Positions 38,687-45,842 of a DNA stretch of 54,629 nucleotides are shown here, piece after piece. The translations under genes and the position numbers were made by a program. The DNA is from Parcubacteria group bacterium Greene0714_7 (GTDB taxonomy: Bacteria; Patescibacteriota; Minisyncoccia; Phycocordibacterales; Phycocordibacteraceae), in the NCBI GenBank assembly GCA_007378985.1, contig VMHB01000003.1, positions 92,283 to 146,911 on the forward strand, read 5' to 3'. The stretch's first letter is position 1. Each line of letters opens with the position of its first letter. Under the pieces are notes generated by a model. It saw only the letters and a list, made by a program, of their open reading frames with translations, was not told where the DNA came from and ran no database searches.

Positions 38687-39562
38687 ATGGCACGAGAAGT
38701 TTTTGAAAAGGAACATTCTCCCTCTTACGCTGAGACAGAGAGCTACCACGGAGGTCCCGAGGTCGAAAGTGCATTGCATTTGGAAGAAGGAACATCTTTA
38801 AAAGGTAGGAATATCTATTTCGGGGGCAACTTGCCTGGTCGATGGGATTTTGGAAATGAGATGGTACGTCGAGGAGCTCGCGTCACCATGCGTGATGTCG
38901 GCGTGTTTGCAAACCCTTTGACACGCCCAGGGAAGCGAGCTCCAGAATTCAAAAAAAAGAATCGTTTCGATCAAGTAGTTATCTATATGGGACTTGCCTT
39001 CTACAAAGGTAAGGCTTTGGAGAATATTTTGAATGCGAGCATAGATACCGTTAACTTTAAAAATAAAGGAGAATTTAAGGCCATAACCCTCGACTTTACT
39101 TCTATGGAAAACGCAACTCCTGCGAATGCTTCCGAAGTAGCACTACACGCTCTTATGCATCGTTTTTTTCAAGCAGGAGGCTTCGATTCTCATCAAGGGT
39201 CTGTAACTCGAAAAACAATTCAAAATGTTTTAGAGAAAAGAGGTTTGGATTCTAAGCTCGTAGTAGAGGAAGCAATTCATATGCGTCCGACCGGATCTGG
39301 TGGTTGGGGTGAACTCTACGACCTATCGGGGATGCTGGCAGAGCAAAGCGGAGAAGCAGCTCTCGGAATGAGCAGGGTTCCACCTTTGATCCGAGCTCTA
39401 TTTTTGAATGGAAAGATTAAAGAATATCAAGAGCTTGAGAGATCATTTAAAGCAGTCCAGGAGGAAATTAAAATTCTTGCTAAAAATAAAACAACCACCC
39501 CCACTGGCACCCCACCTACAATTCATACTGTCACTGTCAAGACAAGAGAGGAAGTTCCATGA
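38687..39562 (+). CDS. Hypothetical protein of unknown family
   Basis: MAREVFEKEHSPSYAETESYHGG...; promoter position excludes the track's upstream start at 38567. Confidence 0.75.
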   Translation: MAREVFEKEHSPSYAETESYHGGPEVESALHLEEGTSLKGRNIYFGGNLPGRWDFGNEMVRRGARVTMRDVGVFANPLTRPGKRAPEFKKKNRFDQVVIYMGLAFYKGKALENILNASIDTVNFKNKGEFKAITLDFTSMENATPANASEVALHALMHRFFQAGGFDSHQGSVTRKTIQNVLEKRGLDSKLVVEEAIHMRPTGSGGWGELYDLSGMLAEQSGEAALGMSRVPPLIRALFLNGKIKEYQELERSFKAVQEEIKILAKNKTTTPTGTPPTIHTVTVKTREEVP

Positions 39563-41177
39563 TGAAGGTGGAGCCTTTACCGGCACCTTCAGATTCTGCC
39601 CAGATTTTTCCTTTGTGAGCCTCTACGTGAGCCTTGGTGACGAAGAGTCCTACGCCCGTTGAAGCAGGGTTAATACGCTTAGAATCTTCACCTGGTCTGA
39701 AGAGCTGGAAGAGGTTTTTGAGAGTGTCTTCTGTCATGCCAACCCCAGTGTCTTTAAGTGAAATACGAGCAACAGTGCCGATGCACTTCACACTAAGATT
39801 CATCTCTCCTGTTGGTGTGTACTTAATGGTGTTATCCAGAAGATTATTCAAGACTTCATTCATCTTTGAGACATCAATTTTCGCTTTCACGCCATCGAGA
39901 GCTGGATCGTAGGTTGCACTTAATTTCAATCCTTTCTTTTCAGCGTTCGGAGTGAACGCCATTACTGCATTTTTTATAAGTGGCACAAGCTCAATGTCTA
40001 CAAAATCGTATTTCATTCTCCCCTGTTCGATACGCGACACATCGAGATAGGTTTCCACTGACTTCGCCATGTCGGTTGCCCTATCAAAAACTTGCTGTAA
40101 ACCTTCCTTTCCTGCCGGTGCCAAAACCCCGTAAGAGCCATCCAAAAGCAGTGAAATAAAGTTACGAATGATAGTTAAAGGAGCGCGAAGGTCATGAGAC
40201 GCCATTGAGAGAAATTGTGATTTAAGTCTGTCGAGTTCTTTGAGTTTGTCGTTCGCAACTCTCAAATCAGCGGCGAGTAGTTCAATATGCTCTCGCTGCT
40301 CGACTTCTTTTGTTACACCTCGAATCAGTAGTATTCCAAAAGACAGAACAAGGAGAAATTCGCTTACGCGAAAAATTAATAAATGCGTTTCTTTTGAAAA
40401 GATTATTTCACCAAAAATTACCACAGCTAAAAAGGCCGTCAGAATCGCGACTGCCGCGGCTTTGGCGTTGAGAAATTTATATCGTAGCAATGCCAATGAT
40501 GCTGCAAATATAAAAGGAAATATGAATAGAGCCCCAAACTTGAGAAACGAAGGATTATCAAAAAATGCTGGGAGTACAAAGTTAAAAGTAATAAGAAGCG
40601 TAAATGTAATAACAATACCAGCAAGAATGACGCGCATTGGCGTGCGCTCCTGTGGTTTGGTTTTTTTAAATTTTGAAATGAAATGCACTAAACCTCCCAC
40701 AAGACAGAAAAATACAAATATACCAAAAATCACTATTCCAGGACCATTTACAATTGTTGCGATAGATCCATCTGAGGTAAGAGTGCCTATGCGTGTAAAT
40801 ACAAACGGGGATAAATTCAAAATTGAAACGCAAACCGCACAAAGAAATAGCCAGATCTGGGTTGTTTTTTTAAATGGTATTTTATGTTCTGGAAAGGTAG
40901 AGAGGAATAAAAAAAGACTAAATACAAACCACGCAGCGCTCGCGATTACTCCTCGAATAATCCAAAAAGCGGTATCAGCAACCTGTGTTTGATAAAACAG
41001 ATAGTTGAGCACGCTCCATGCTATTGAAGTGAAGCAGAAAAATAAAAAGATTGTATTTGAGCTACTTTTTGTATTAGAAAAATACACAACTGCACCTAAT
41101 ACAGCCATGAAGGCAATGATAACGCCGACAGTCAAAAGTTCTAGATTAACAAATGCCGATAAAGAAAAAACCATCAC
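39537..41177 (-). CDS. Membrane sensor histidine kinase
   Basis: N-terminal multi-TM; HisKA QFLSMASHDLRAPLTIIRNF; HATPase NLLDNTIKYTP, DTGVGM, STGVGLFVTK. Confidence 0.95.
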   Translation of the reverse strand: MMVFSLSAFVNLELLTVGVIIAFMAVLGAVVYFSNTKSSSNTIFLFFCFTSIAWSVLNYLFYQTQVADTAFWIIRGVIASAAWFVFSLFLFLSTFPEHKIPFKKTTQIWLFLCAVCVSILNLSPFVFTRIGTLTSDGSIATIVNGPGIVIFGIFVFFCLVGGLVHFISKFKKTKPQERTPMRVILAGIVITFTLLITFNFVLPAFFDNPSFLKFGALFIFPFIFAASLALLRYKFLNAKAAAVAILTAFLAVVIFGEIIFSKETHLLIFRVSEFLLVLSFGILLIRGVTKEVEQREHIELLAADLRVANDKLKELDRLKSQFLSMASHDLRAPLTIIRNFISLLLDGSYGVLAPAGKEGLQQVFDRATDMAKSVETYLDVSRIEQGRMKYDFVDIELVPLIKNAVMAFTPNAEKKGLKLSATYDPALDGVKAKIDVSKMNEVLNNLLDNTIKYTPTGEMNLSVKCIGTVARISLKDTGVGMTEDTLKNLFQLFRPGEDSKRINPASTGVGLFVTKAHVEAHKGKIWAESEGAGKGSTFIMELPLLS

Positions 41178-41178
41178 C

Positions 41179-42240
41179 TTACACTATAACAGGGGGCAGG
41201 CGTCGAGAGCGGGCACTGGCAGGTTTACTGTGTCCAAACCGCATAAGAAATGCTAGGTGTGAGTCTCTAGGGGCATCAAATGCATTAAATACTTTTTGAT
41301 ATGAATCAAGAATTTGTTTTTCAAAGTTTTTTGGAATAGGCCTTAAGTCATTAACTTCAGCCCGATGTGTTAAAAACATTAAACCCGTTACGGGTTGCAC
41401 GGCGATACCCAATGCCGTTGCTTCGAGCCATACCCGTTGCATTAGTTCACCAACCTGGACATATGCTTCAGGAGTTCTTTTGTTAATAAATATGCCGCCA
41501 TATATTGCAGAGTCACGATATACACTAGCCATTTGAGCCGCTATTTTTTTAGATAACCCAATAGATCTGTTGAGTGTGTCTGTTACTTTCCAATGTTTAA
41601 GAATGCGCATTGCAAATTGTGCAGGAGGCGGCAACTCTAACGACTTAATGTATAGACCTTCTATACCGGACTCGTTATCTTTTTTGTCCCATAAAATATC
41701 TTTAAAAAACAGGTGATGAAGTTCGGGAACCTGCAAAGCTATATCTTCCATGGTAGCAAGTGCCTTCCCCACCTCTTTTTTATCGACAGCGTCTTTTGAA
41801 AATACAAACGACACACTTGGCGAAATACTGTGTGTACTTAACAGTAGTGTTTTCTTATCAGATTCTGAAAGAGGTTTTTTTGAATAGTGTTTTCGGTTGC
41901 AACCACGCTTCGATATTGTTTCATAAAGCGTGTTTACAGCCTCTTTTGTTTCAGAAAATATAATTTCCGCTACGCAATTATTTTTTTCTGGAAAATAATT
42001 TACCGATATAGCAAGGGCCTTAGACGCTGCAATGATGCGTATATTTTGTATGAGAGCACCATGAGCAACATAGGAACCTGTTTGTTGGTAATTTAAAATA
42101 GGATTATCTTTTCCTGGTATATTCCAAATTCGAATTGTATTTCCTGAAAGAATAGAAAACTTCCAAGGTTGTGAGTTGTCACCCGACGGAGCAAAAACAG
42201 CATGAGCGAGTATCTCCTCTAGCGTTCTTCGTTCTGTCAT
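41179..42240 (-). CDS. Nitroreductase-like (Acg-type) FMN oxidoreductase
   Basis: LEEILAHAVFAPSGDNSQPWKFSI; C-terminal GELMQRVWLEATALGIAVQPVTGLMFL. Confidence 0.8.
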   Translation of the reverse strand: MTERRTLEEILAHAVFAPSGDNSQPWKFSILSGNTIRIWNIPGKDNPILNYQQTGSYVAHGALIQNIRIIAASKALAISVNYFPEKNNCVAEIIFSETKEAVNTLYETISKRGCNRKHYSKKPLSESDKKTLLLSTHSISPSVSFVFSKDAVDKKEVGKALATMEDIALQVPELHHLFFKDILWDKKDNESGIEGLYIKSLELPPPAQFAMRILKHWKVTDTLNRSIGLSKKIAAQMASVYRDSAIYGGIFINKRTPEAYVQVGELMQRVWLEATALGIAVQPVTGLMFLTHRAEVNDLRPIPKNFEKQILDSYQKVFNAFDAPRDSHLAFLMRFGHSKPASARSRRLPPVIV

Positions 42241-42245
42241 ACTGT

Positions 42246-43289
42246 CTAATTATTACTAAATATCTTTTCTAAGTTGACATCTATTTTCCCTGAACGAATA
42301 GGAAGCCCGAGAACAATTTGTTTTACTGCAAAGGCAACCACTACGCCAGAGAGGGTTGCCGCATCGCCTAGTTGTGGCCATGAATAAAGAGTTTTCCCAA
42401 CTTCAGCGAGAGAAGACATCATACGAGGTACTATCATCTCTGCCCCAGCTATTTTTGTTGCAAGTCTAGGTAATTCTTCCGGAGGAAATGCCTTAAACTC
42501 ATTGAGAGTGATATCTCCTATTAAGCCATTAAAAAGATATGTTTCTTTGTCTAAGTCAAAACGCTCAATATCGACAATAACCCCATCACCGTTATCTGTC
42601 GCCATCACAACAGGTATACCTCTTTTGCGGGCCTCTTCGCGAAGAAATATTTTTGTTTCCAGGTGGTCAGTCTCTTCTACTAGCACATCAACACCTCTTA
42701 GAAAACTATCAATATTTTCTGAGGTAACCCCCTCAGCGTATTCTTCAACTTCTCCATAAGGATCCATTTGGTAGATGTACTCTCTCGCAACAGTGGTCTT
42801 CTTTTGTCCCACTTTACTAAAGTCGTACCGTACACGATTCATATTTGACCCCGATAAGGTATCGGGGTCAGCAATTTTTATGTACCTACTCATACCCATC
42901 ATGTTGAGTGTAAGCGCACAGTGACTCCCTACACTCATTCCAGCAATAGCTATTCGCGAGTCTCGTAGTTTTTTCTGTTCGTCGGTTGTAATTAAATTCC
43001 TATTTCGGGTTGTGCGAAGTTCTTGGTGTTCAGTGTCAGAAAGGTAATGCACGAGTTGGTTATTCCAGGGAAAGTAAAACCAAGAACCAGATTCCTCCAT
43101 GCTATGACTACCAATATGCTCATTTATGAACAGTTCAAACTCTTCCGTGTAGTTCTTATTGAATTTAAACCGCGGATTTCTTATGAGAAACAAATCTTCC
43201 AAGAGCTCTCGATACACATCAATGACTAAAGCGTTCTTTGTATTTAGAGTCTGGTCTACATCTTTGAATTGTATAGGTTCAGGTTTCAT
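42246..43289 (-). CDS. ThiF/MoeB/HesA (E1-like) family protein
   Basis: DSRIAIAGMSVGSHCALTLNMMGMSRYIKIADPDTLSGSNMNRVRYDFSKVGQKKTTVAREYIYQMDPY; ATGA overlap with upstream gene. Confidence 0.88.
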   Translation of the reverse strand: MKPEPIQFKDVDQTLNTKNALVIDVYRELLEDLFLIRNPRFKFNKNYTEEFELFINEHIGSHSMEESGSWFYFPWNNQLVHYLSDTEHQELRTTRNRNLITTDEQKKLRDSRIAIAGMSVGSHCALTLNMMGMSRYIKIADPDTLSGSNMNRVRYDFSKVGQKKTTVAREYIYQMDPYGEVEEYAEGVTSENIDSFLRGVDVLVEETDHLETKIFLREEARKRGIPVVMATDNGDGVIVDIERFDLDKETYLFNGLIGDITLNEFKAFPPEELPRLATKIAGAEMIVPRMMSSLAEVGKTLYSWPQLGDAATLSGVVVAFAVKQIVLGLPIRSGKIDVNLEKIFSNN

Positions 43290-44776
43290 ATTTTTTTGAC
43301 CCATTTTTGTTTTATGCCAACAGGAAAATGAGTAGGATCGCCCAAGTCCCAAAACACTAGTTTGGGGTTTGCACGCTTACCCAGCATATCGGATAATTCC
43401 CTAAATTCCGAATTGAAAGTGCGCAGATGATTAGTTACAGTATGTAAAAGAAGGTCGCGTTCAACTATGCTCATCTTTCTGTTTCGCTTTTGTTCAAGGT
43501 GTATCTCTAAGTATTGATTTTTTTCTTTATCAAATACAGTAATCAGTGTGAACTTCCCTGTCAGAAATTTTTGGAATCTCTTTTCTAAGAGTACCTCACG
43601 AATCGTTTCAGGATAGATTTGAAGGCCGTAGAGGGTAGTAGAAAGATCGGTGCGCTCATACACAAAGACAAACGGTAGTTCGTATAGTTTTATTTTATGT
43701 TTTTTTGCTTCTTTCTCTAAATCAACTCCTGCTTCCTTTAAAATTTCTTTAAGTTCAGCAAATGAGTAGGTCCCTCCATGGTCTCCAACCGCATAGCGAA
43801 CAAGAGGTACTTCGCTATCACCCGTAAGAACTATTTCACCTTTAATTGTCTCAAAATATACGAAGTGAGGATTGTATTGAGCTAATGTTGGCGTGCGATG
43901 AATTTTCCCAAAAACTTTTTCAGCAAGAGAAGGGTTTCCAAGAACGAGACGTCTAATCAGAATTGAAGTTGGACTTTCGAACGCCATCGCGCCAATATCC
44001 GCTGTTCCATAGATATTTAATGTATCGGTGTGTATGTTATTCAAATCTACTTTCTTGGCTAGATATTCCCTAAACGTTTCAGTAAAAGCTTCTGCAGCAA
44101 AAATAAATTTAATATTGAGTTTTTTGGTTTCAATACCCTCTTCTTCAGCTTCGTCAATAACATCTTTAGTGAATGGAGGATATCCAACAAGAATAGTTTG
44201 GTCATACTGAGGAGAAAGTTCGCGGAGTGCATTAAAAATTTCTTTTTTATTCACCCCTGGTGTTATGAGAGAAAGAGTACCGATGCGTTCATTAACAAAC
44301 TCAAACGCTTTATATGTAATAAGACCTCCAATCCAAACACCCATTCCGAAACCAACAATAACAAGGGTTTTTTGTTTTTTATATTGAGCGGAAATTGCCT
44401 TTAAATATAGTTCTAGAAGTATTGAATATTCCCAATCCAAATGTGCATTGCGAGGGAAATAAAATGGTTTTCCTGTTGAACCAGATGTTGCAGAAAAAAC
44501 GATTGCACCAGCGAGGTTTGAATATGAAAGGCTTTTGAGCGGGAAAGTCCGCAGATATCTCTTCTTATCAGTAGTAGGTATTTTTTCAAATTCTTTCCAA
44601 TTTATTGTTTTTGGAACACGGATGCCATTTGTCTTTAAAAATGTTTTATATGCGGGAATAGAATGATAGCTTTTTTTGAATACACGAAGAGCAGTGCTCC
44701 TGCCGGTTTTTTCCCAAAAAACTGATTTTTTTGTAACAATATCCTTTAGAATTTTGTTTGCCTCTTTCTTAGTCAT
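43286..44776 (-). CDS. PaaK/CapK-like adenylate-forming ligase
   Basis: AIVFSATSGSTGKPFYFPRNAHLDWEY (AMP-binding P-loop); IYGTADIGAMAFES; VRYAVGDHG. Confidence 0.85.
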   Translation of the reverse strand: MTKKEANKILKDIVTKKSVFWEKTGRSTALRVFKKSYHSIPAYKTFLKTNGIRVPKTINWKEFEKIPTTDKKRYLRTFPLKSLSYSNLAGAIVFSATSGSTGKPFYFPRNAHLDWEYSILLELYLKAISAQYKKQKTLVIVGFGMGVWIGGLITYKAFEFVNERIGTLSLITPGVNKKEIFNALRELSPQYDQTILVGYPPFTKDVIDEAEEEGIETKKLNIKFIFAAEAFTETFREYLAKKVDLNNIHTDTLNIYGTADIGAMAFESPTSILIRRLVLGNPSLAEKVFGKIHRTPTLAQYNPHFVYFETIKGEIVLTGDSEVPLVRYAVGDHGGTYSFAELKEILKEAGVDLEKEAKKHKIKLYELPFVFVYERTDLSTTLYGLQIYPETIREVLLEKRFQKFLTGKFTLITVFDKEKNQYLEIHLEQKRNRKMSIVERDLLLHTVTNHLRTFNSEFRELSDMLGKRANPKLVFWDLGDPTHFPVGIKQKWVKKI

Positions 44777-45842
44777 AAGTTTTTTGAAACCGCTCTTCCG
44801 CTAATGCATCGGCGACCTCGCCTGTAGGAATAGAGTCCCTAATAGAAGTTTCTATTATTTTTTCAACAGTATTTCTAATACGCTTAATATCTGACTCTAC
44901 GCGTTCTTGTGAGTATCCTAATGGATGTAACTCGTCAGCAACGCTAATGAGTCCGCCGGCGTTTGCTACATAATCCGGAACATAGAGTATTCCAGCTTCA
45001 AAGAGAGCTTGCCCGTCCTCCTGTGTTGTTAATTGATTGTTAGCTGCACCGCAAATAATTTTTGTTTTCAGGTTTGGAATAGTATCTTTATTAAACTCGT
45101 TACCCATGGCGCACGGCGAATATATGTCAGATTCGATTGTGTGTATGATTGCAGAATCAACTATTTCAATGGTGGGATGATTCTTCAGCGCGCGTTCAAT
45201 TCGTTCAGGAACAATATCAGCTCCTATCAATTTTGCGCCAGTCTTCTCGAGAAGTGCACATAAATCAATACCTACCCCACCCAAGCCTTTGATAGCAATT
45301 TTCTTACCTTCAAAAGATGCGGAGCCTGTTTGCATTGCTAGCGCTCCTTCCATAGCATAGAAGACACTGAGTGCCGCCCACCGTGCTGGGAGACCGCCCA
45401 CTTTAGGTCTACCCACTATGGTATTTGAATGTTGTTCAAGTATCTGTATGTCGTGCTCATTAAGTCCTACATCTTCTCCAGTATAAAAAGGCTCACCTAA
45501 CTCTGCGAGAGCCTTTGCGTAGGCAGTAAGTATTGCGTCTTTATCTCCCTCACCGTCTTTTGGTGCAAGAATCACACCTTTTGCTCCTCCGAATGATACT
45601 TCTGCAATGGCACATTTGTATGTCATTGCACGGGACAGACGGAGAGAATCCCTCAAGGCATCCTCTTCTTTCTGGTAGTGCCAATAACGTGTTCCTCCTA
45701 TAGCAGGACCACGATTTGTATTGTGAATCGAAATAAATGCCAAAAGTCCACTTGCAGAATCTTCAATGCGTAAGACTCTCTTATGGGTATCAAATTCGGG
45801 AAATGTATTTACATCAACAGAGGTAATGCTCAAATTTGACAT
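44769..45842 (-). CDS. Leu/Phe/Val/Glu dehydrogenase family protein
   Basis: NRGPAIGGTRYWHYQKEEDALRDSLRLSRAMTYKCAIAEVSFGGAKGVI; GEDVGLNEHDI; KIAIKGLGGVGIDL; YVANAGGLISVADEL. Confidence 0.92.
   Translation of the reverse strand: MSNLSITSVDVNTFPEFDTHKRVLRIEDSASGLLAFISIHNTNRGPAIGGTRYWHYQKEEDALRDSLRLSRAMTYKCAIAEVSFGGAKGVILAPKDGEGDKDAILTAYAKALAELGEPFYTGEDVGLNEHDIQILEQHSNTIVGRPKVGGLPARWAALSVFYAMEGALAMQTGSASFEGKKIAIKGLGGVGIDLCALLEKTGAKLIGADIVPERIERALKNHPTIEIVDSAIIHTIESDIYSPCAMGNEFNKDTIPNLKTKIICGAANNQLTTQEDGQALFEAGILYVPDYVANAGGLISVADELHPLGYSQERVESDIKRIRNTVEKIIETSIRDSIPTGEVADALAEERFQKTYD

Follow-up and report, generated by a model that had tools for sequence, protein, structure and literature searches.

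A CPR operon that couples a candidate oxazolone-type synthase to a sensor histidine kinase

Introduction

Bacteria of the Candidate Phyla Radiation (CPR) are organisms with reduced genomes that mostly live on other cells; communication among them is little understood. What would such a cell make with two adenylating enzymes, a flavin enzyme and an amino-acid-converting enzyme packed into one operon, and would it also sense the product? The question is raised by a minus-strand gene cluster in a 54,629-nucleotide stretch of DNA (hereafter the window) from contig VMHB01000003.1 of Parcubacteria group bacterium Greene0714_7 (assembly GCA_007378985.1). An initial annotation of the window had described four genes and read them as a dedicated small-molecule or peptide-modification pathway. 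The analyses reported here revealed five genes, encoding an amino-acid dehydrogenase (AADH), a PaaK-like ligase (LIG), a ThiF-like cyclase (ThiF), a flavin-dependent oxidase (FDO) and a membrane histidine kinase (HK). We give about even chances to the proposal that the product of this operon is a small molecule of the oxazolone (azlactone) type, and that the co-encoded kinase detects it or a related cue.

Results

Organization of the operon

Inspection of the open reading frames and direct reading of the sequence placed five genes in the order AADH-LIG-ThiF-FDO-HK, all on the minus strand. AADH (44769..45842), predicted to encode an amino-acid (Leu/Phe/Trp-type) dehydrogenase of 357 amino acids (PF02812/PF00208), shares an 8-nt coding overlap (ATGACTAA; minus strand, 44769..44776) with LIG (43286..44776), a PaaK-like adenylate-forming ligase of 496 amino acids recognized by TIGR02155, its motifs and its predicted fold. 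The stop codon of LIG (43288-43286) in turn overlaps the ATG of ThiF (43289-43287) by 4 nt (ATGA). ThiF (42246..43289) encodes a ThiF-like cyclase of 347 amino acids (PF00899, 1.9e-26; N-terminal half of NF005901), the open reading frame of 368 amino acids at this position reflecting only a mechanical upstream TTG start. After a gap of 5 nt (42241-42245) follows FDO (41179..42240), a nitroreductase-superfamily flavin-dependent oxidase of 353 amino acids (PF00881; C-terminal half of NF005901), and HK (39537..41177), a membrane histidine kinase of 546 amino acids (HisKA, HATPase_c, HisKA_7TM), starts with a GTG at 41177, 1 nt past the FDO stop. The first four genes, their two overlaps and the gap were all re-read in the sequence as first annotated, and profile searches upheld the family assignments: an ELFV/ScyB-like dehydrogenase, a PaaK-like ligase, a ThiF protein and a nitroreductase of the Rv1355c C-terminal type. 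The description as a four-gene operon was right for these genes but incomplete, the sensor kinase at 39537-41177 having been overlooked. With the kinase included, the operon takes on a different likely meaning.

The ThiF and FDO pair

ThiF and FDO together matched both halves of the Rv1355c family model NF005901, ThiF the N-terminal half (298 bits over 30-365) and FDO the C-terminal half (177 bits; Acg family, 114), which bears out the resemblance to Rv1355c that had been noted at the outset. Both proteins aligned end to end with TrzS of Mycobacterium simiae (locus L152), including the TrzS-type N-terminal region. TrzS (Rv1355c) converts N-acyl amino acids to acyl-oxazolones; its ThiF part cyclises N-acyl tryptophan with ATP and its FDO part desaturates the product with O2, and an Asp-to-Ala variant of the M. 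smegmatis enzyme abolished cyclisation (PMC12856293). Oxazolones are broken down by acid (PMC12856293). The equivalent of the ATP-contacting D217 of M. smegmatis TrzS, aligned via the M. simiae sequence, is kept in the ThiF of the window, in which the invariant D229 (numbering of the 368-residue open reading frame; 208 from the ATG), within the motif VEExDxLxxK, aligns with D225 of M. simiae. In FDO, the APSGxNxQPW motif, a general motif for flavin mononucleotide (FMN), was invariant, and the nearest solved structure was Acg (2ymv, 3.8e-17), a finding also reported for TrzS. In the PDB, the ThiF profile matched TcdA best, a ThiF relative that forms cyclic t6A through ATP-dependent ring closure. 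The homology makes it likely that the ThiF-FDO step follows the same ring chemistry as TrzS.

The ligase

LIG scored 52.6 bits (E 2.5e-14) against the PaaK model TIGR02155, under its cut-off of 646, so that the equivalog level was not reached; it also matched the flexirubin ligase model FlxY under that model's cut-off, and no Pfam model matched at 1e-3. An invariant SG..G P-loop, a YG motif, D332 and R375 were seen in alignments of 32 and 61 rows, and the ANL motifs A3, A5, A7 and A8 were present. The C-terminal K489 was invariant in the smaller alignment and conserved in at least 90% of the larger. A profile search of the PDB returned PaaK (2y4o, 1.6e-21), while the AlphaFold model, with a predicted local distance difference test (pLDDT) score of 92, had as its best fold match PaaK1 (2y27; E 1e-22, template-modelling (TM) score 0.68). 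The retained adenylation motifs and the fit to PaaK1 agree with the initial view of LIG as an adenylating enzyme. More distantly, the fold matched the acyl-amino-acid synthetase JAR1/GH3.11 (E 4e-10). GH3 enzymes hand the acyl-adenylate directly to an amine. A ligase with no need for coenzyme A (CoA) fits here, if indirectly, because none of the 20 operon-bearing genomes contained CoaE above its cut-off; by this analogy, a LIG that passes the acyl-adenylate straight to an amine would suit a cell without CoA synthesis, one that could nonetheless scavenge CoA. LIG probably takes the place of the missing N-acyltransferase.

The first gene and its substitutes

The best NCBIfam model for AADH was the ScyB tryptophan dehydrogenase, with 289 bits against a cut-off of 600, so that the equivalog level was not reached; the Pfam matches place AADH in the ELFV superfamily. 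The nearest solved structures were a leucine dehydrogenase (6acf, 1.7e-78) and a tryptophan dehydrogenase (5b37, 5e-66), and the lysines of TYKC and GGAKG and the aspartate of EDVG were seen by eye. Across the related loci, position 1 is occupied by one of three unrelated types, namely an ELFV dehydrogenase as in the window, a class I/II aminotransferase, or a PF00221 ammonia-lyase. The flexirubin tyrosine ammonia-lyase FlxA was the nearest match of the ammonia-lyases (595-626 bits against a cut-off of 700), and the one in L150 exceeded the cut-off for histidine ammonia-lyase (HutH). In a FastTree phylogeny of LIG (local supports only), loci with a lyase clustered, with 3 label changes compared to a shuffled mean of 13.4, and dehydrogenase and aminotransferase alternated even between the near sisters L076 and L078. 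The ligase would thus receive an amino acid processed by the position-1 enzyme. The direction of the reaction is clear for the lyase only (deamination), as the dehydrogenase or aminotransferase may run either way and could, alternatively, provide the amino acid that undergoes acylation.

Distribution and synteny

A total of 381 genomes of the phylum were scanned for ThiF and for LIG, and gene order was read directly in 40 loci of this set and in 80 loci of a named-genome set; 49 named CPR loci with flanks of 5 kb or more to either side formed a flank-filtered set. The contig scan of the named genomes used a closer subset of the alignment, the full-diversity alignments A1 and A2 being too divergent. 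Among the 381 genomes, strong ThiF matches were present in 47, strong LIG matches in 54 and both in 44 (hypergeometric p ~3e-44, uncorrected for shared ancestry and showing a non-chance link only), and 42 of 55 LIG matches had a strong ThiF match no more than 4 kb away. The genes found near ThiF in the 49 flank-filtered loci were FDO (46), LIG (45), HK (45), a recognized first-gene enzyme (31) and a single-domain response regulator (9); in another count of loci, HK was present in 36 of 41. AADH and LIG are fused in L056, and ThiF and FDO are fused in a TrzS-like manner in L035/L107 (one contig region, recovered twice). The set is therefore syntenic across CPR genomes, and this synteny, the fusions and the retained active-site motifs support the earlier idea of a dedicated pathway for a small molecule, one in which a flavin redox enzyme works besides two enzymes that adenylate.

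The ThiF relatives in named genomes came almost entirely from metagenome-assembled genomes (MAGs) of CPR/Patescibacteria (Kaiser-, Lipton-, Wolfe-, Magasanik-, Doudna-, Yanofsky-, Woyke- and Gracilibacteria, and others); two records, assigned to Nitrospirae and Planctomycetota, probably reflect misbinning. Clear matches outside the CPR numbered two among the 80 kept loci, Rhodococcus sp. KRD162 (L151) and M. simiae (L152, a TrzS). In the Rhodococcus locus (L151:4361-6936), LIG and ThiF overlap by 4 nt and no FDO was recognized nearby. Further LIG relatives were seen in Nonomuraea and Gemmatirosa records. In nine loci (L082, L083, L084, L089, L092, L098, L103, L130 and L138), a conserved protein of ~310 amino acids is encoded between FDO and HK; by eye it resembles an S-adenosylmethionine-dependent methyltransferase, and a Pfam search with one member gave no match.

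The sensor kinase and its partners

HK has an intact H box (SHDLRAP), N box, and G1 and G2 boxes, preceded by an N-terminal HisKA_7TM region. Its transmembrane sensor part (minus strand, 40308..41177) was delimited with an alignment of 30 operon kinases (A7), and in its model (pLDDT 89.6) helices 4 and 5 are separated by a beta-hairpin. A search with this sensor alignment revealed relatives in 150 of the 381 genomes, and 19 of the 20 best matches were located within 5 kb of a ThiF match. Conversely, 40 of the 48 strong ThiF matches and 16 of the 24 weak ones had a kinase of the A7 family within 5 kb, where a rough genome-size estimate gives an expectation of ~1%. Where ThiF is weak or missing, the neighbours of these kinases are other synthases; PF13444 (FeeM/LuxI-like), for example, occurred in only 6 of the 381 genomes, and five of its six matches were within 2 kb of an A7-family kinase. 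Where the enzymes change, HK remains the most constant partner. Synthase and sensor kinase are adjacent and conserved, as a quorum-sensing pair requires, and we consider it somewhat likelier that HK senses the product of the operon than that it does not. A fold search of the PDB with the sensor model returned only animal G-protein-coupled receptors among the best 50 matches, none of which passed E 0.001 (best 0.006, TM score ~0.5); these matches are not significant, and no kinship is claimed.

The other neighbourhoods of this kinase family are varied. Five loci (L153, L154, L157, L158 and L159) combine a short ThiF (~260 amino acids) with a FeeM/LuxI-like GNAT protein (~210 amino acids), a kinase of the same type and often a response regulator, and L163 has the GNAT protein and the kinase without ThiF. 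The compact operons that contain a GNAT protein apparently represent a second, acyltransferase-based version of the system. In L155 (6945-7694), L156 (7288-8010) and L161 (6416-7135), a short ThiF and a kinase are accompanied by a methyltransferase of ~240 amino acids, without a GNAT protein. A UbiA-like prenyltransferase and a polyprenyl synthetase are encoded near the same kinase family in L164, L165, L168 and L169, which possibly make a prenyl-derived signal. A FabH-like ketosynthase (L166:7010-8143) and a BioF/Kbl-type alpha-oxoamine synthase (L170:5230-6513) are found beside it elsewhere. Even in the window's own genus another enzyme partners the kinase: in L172 (4950-6080), from a member without the ThiF operon, a PigE/acyl-ACP-reductase-like gene stands directly upstream of the kinase.

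Discussion

Proposed pathway

The product class that best accounts for the gene content would be an (aryl)acyl-amino-acid oxazolone. In the first step, AADH or the aminotransferase would interconvert an amino acid and a keto acid, or, in other CPR bacteria, the ammonia-lyase would remove the amino group of an aromatic amino acid, which gives an arylacrylic acid, for instance p-coumarate or urocanate. LIG would then adenylate a carboxylic acid, probably the product of the first step, and couple the activated acid to an amino acid through the amino group of the latter, in place of an acyltransferase of the TyzA/TrzA/FeeM type. In the third step, ThiF would activate the N-acyl amino acid by adenylating its free carboxylate, and ring closure by the amide oxygen would give the five-membered oxazolone; in the fourth, FDO would desaturate the alpha-beta bond; and in the fifth, the 7TM-type HK of the operon would sense the product. 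The third and fourth steps follow from the homology to TrzS, and we infer the first two (in substrate, direction and use of CoA) and the fifth. Ring chemistry and sensing do not stand independently of each other, which the even odds given to the whole proposal take into account.

A broader proposal, held tentatively and with rather less than even confidence, is that the operon represents a new class of CPR signal: a self-made aryl- or keto-acyl amino-acid oxazolone, built out of scavenged amino acids with neither fatty acids nor an acyltransferase, and sensed by a seven-helix HK, within a general CPR scheme in which the same kinase family is repeatedly paired with different synthases.

Several observations weigh against the proposed synthesis and sensing of an oxazolone. 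The closest relatives of LIG, a putative amide-forming enzyme in this proposal, are CoA ligases; no N-acyltransferase of the TyzA/TrzA/OxzA type is encoded in the operon, and PF13444 was not found in the window's genome. About one third of the 49 flank-filtered loci lack a recognized first gene. In FDO, the equivalents of the TrzS FMN-site residues Arg540 and Gln651 could not be mapped, as the linker length differs, and the chemistry of this enzyme type in TrzS needs O2, whereas many of the listed hosts are groundwater MAGs. The synteny counts are non-independent, the operon being inherited as a block. The characterized oxazolone systems have no established role in signalling. The main counter-evidence is that searches of the window's genome detected no response regulator or receiver domain, not even at E 10, although the other 19 of the 20 operon genomes have a response regulator, close to the operon in about half. 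In the window's genome, an assembly of 0.85 Mb in 8 contigs with an estimated completeness of 100%, the operon HK is the sole HisKA kinase found and apparently an orphan. The receiver of its output path may be lost, too divergent or missing from the assembly, or there may be no phosphorelay.

Alternative explanations

The same chemistry could serve another purpose, the oxazolone or dehydro-amino-acid being an antimicrobial, a membrane lipid or a redox agent, and HK answering a cue from outside, for instance a metabolite of the host. This is possible, if clearly short of probable. Tyrazolones and tryptazolones are tied to stress and antibiotics, their signalling role being unproven, and some loci carry methyltransferase-like genes as the stieleriacine clusters do; the missing receiver domain of the window's genome points the same way. 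What such a purpose explains poorly is the kinase itself, which remains the most constant partner though the enzymes vary, and whose family also adjoins unrelated synthases, homologues of autoinducer synthases included.

The peptide option of the initial annotation fares worse. Here ThiF would be an E1-like activator of a peptide C-terminus, with LIG and FDO tailoring the peptide, as might be suspected from the ThiF fold, from weak matches to E1-E2 defence models and from the ThiF relatives PaaA and MccB, which act on peptides. The match to TrzS is full-length, however, and the substrate of TrzS is a free N-acyl amino acid. The ThiF of the window has a single, non-conserved Cys in its 347 amino acids, the E1-type catalytic Cys and the Zn-binding CxxC pairs being absent, and the operon has no gene for an E2, Ubl or JAB protein or for a precursor, for which its junctions of 1-8 nt are too tight. 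A peptide or protein modification is accordingly improbable, and that part of the earlier interpretation was not sustained.

A catabolic route, in which a scavenged amino acid is deaminated and converted to a CoA ester with ThiF and FDO as accessories, would make sense of first genes that encode deaminases or transaminases and of the resemblance of LIG to PaaK. It sits badly with TrzS-type ThiF and FDO proteins, which have no known catabolic role, with the absence of CoaE from the operon genomes, and with the constant kinase partner, and we regard it as very unlikely. An anti-phage E1-E2 defence system was rejected, as only the ThiF core was matched, weakly, and the partner genes are absent.

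Significance

If an oxazolone-type product sensed by the co-encoded kinase is the correct reading, the barely studied CPR bacteria would own a chemical signal, and oxazolones would extend beyond the systems based on N-acyltransferases. A synthase-plus-sensor unit in ~1/9 of the sampled CPR genomes names both a class of molecule and a receptor to test. The co-encoded kinase also offers a direct handle on the purpose of oxazolones, a question that concerns mycobacteria too.

Comparison with known systems

The initial annotation did not recognize the gene set as a described system. Half of it, the ThiF and FDO pair of TrzS, has since been described; for the whole combination, literature searches on this gene set in CPR found nothing, the nearest prior work being that of Bernard et al. 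(2020; PMC7567580). Oxazolone synthases and the adjacency of synthase and kinase in CPR bacteria have thus each been published, while a ligase-based oxazolone route with a built-in HK in CPR is undescribed in the literature searched.

The closest counterpart is TrzAS (Rv1356c-Rv1355c) of mycobacteria and Rhodococcus, which makes an N-acyl tryptazolone and shares the ThiF cyclase and FDO desaturase, homologous over their full length and with the tested Asp (PMC12856293). The CPR operon differs in having a PaaK-like ligase and an amino-acid-converting enzyme in place of the acyltransferase TrzA, and in ending with a sensor kinase. TyzABC of M. tuberculosis and OxzAB of P. rubra, which make tyrazolones, likewise have ThiF and FDO-A, separate or fused, in a small operon, but use fatty acyl-CoA and a FeeM-like acyltransferase; a ligase, AADH or kinase is undescribed there (PMC10404671). 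The clusters for stieleriacine, kyonggic acid and thalassotalic acid also combine ThiF, a nitroreductase and an amino-acid acylating enzyme, some with a methyltransferase, but have the N-acyl amino acid synthase NasY in place of the ligase, and their reported products are open-chain dehydrotyrosines (PMC12479983). In flexirubin synthesis, the tyrosine ammonia-lyase FlxA is followed by the PaaK-like ligase FlxY, as in the lyase variants of the operon; the scores of the FlxA-like lyases and of LIG were under the FlxA and FlxY cut-offs, respectively, and genes for a polyene were not seen in the operon. As to the kinase, Bernard et al. (2020) reported homologues of CqsA, LuxI and PpyS beside sensory kinases in CPR bacteria (PMC7567580). 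The ThiF/FDO/ligase class of synthase lies outside their reference families, and the term 'ThiF' is absent from the main text, but these CqsA/CqsS-, LuxI- and PpyS-type pairs share with the present operon its basic plan, a small-molecule synthase beside a membrane sensor kinase (PMC7567580).

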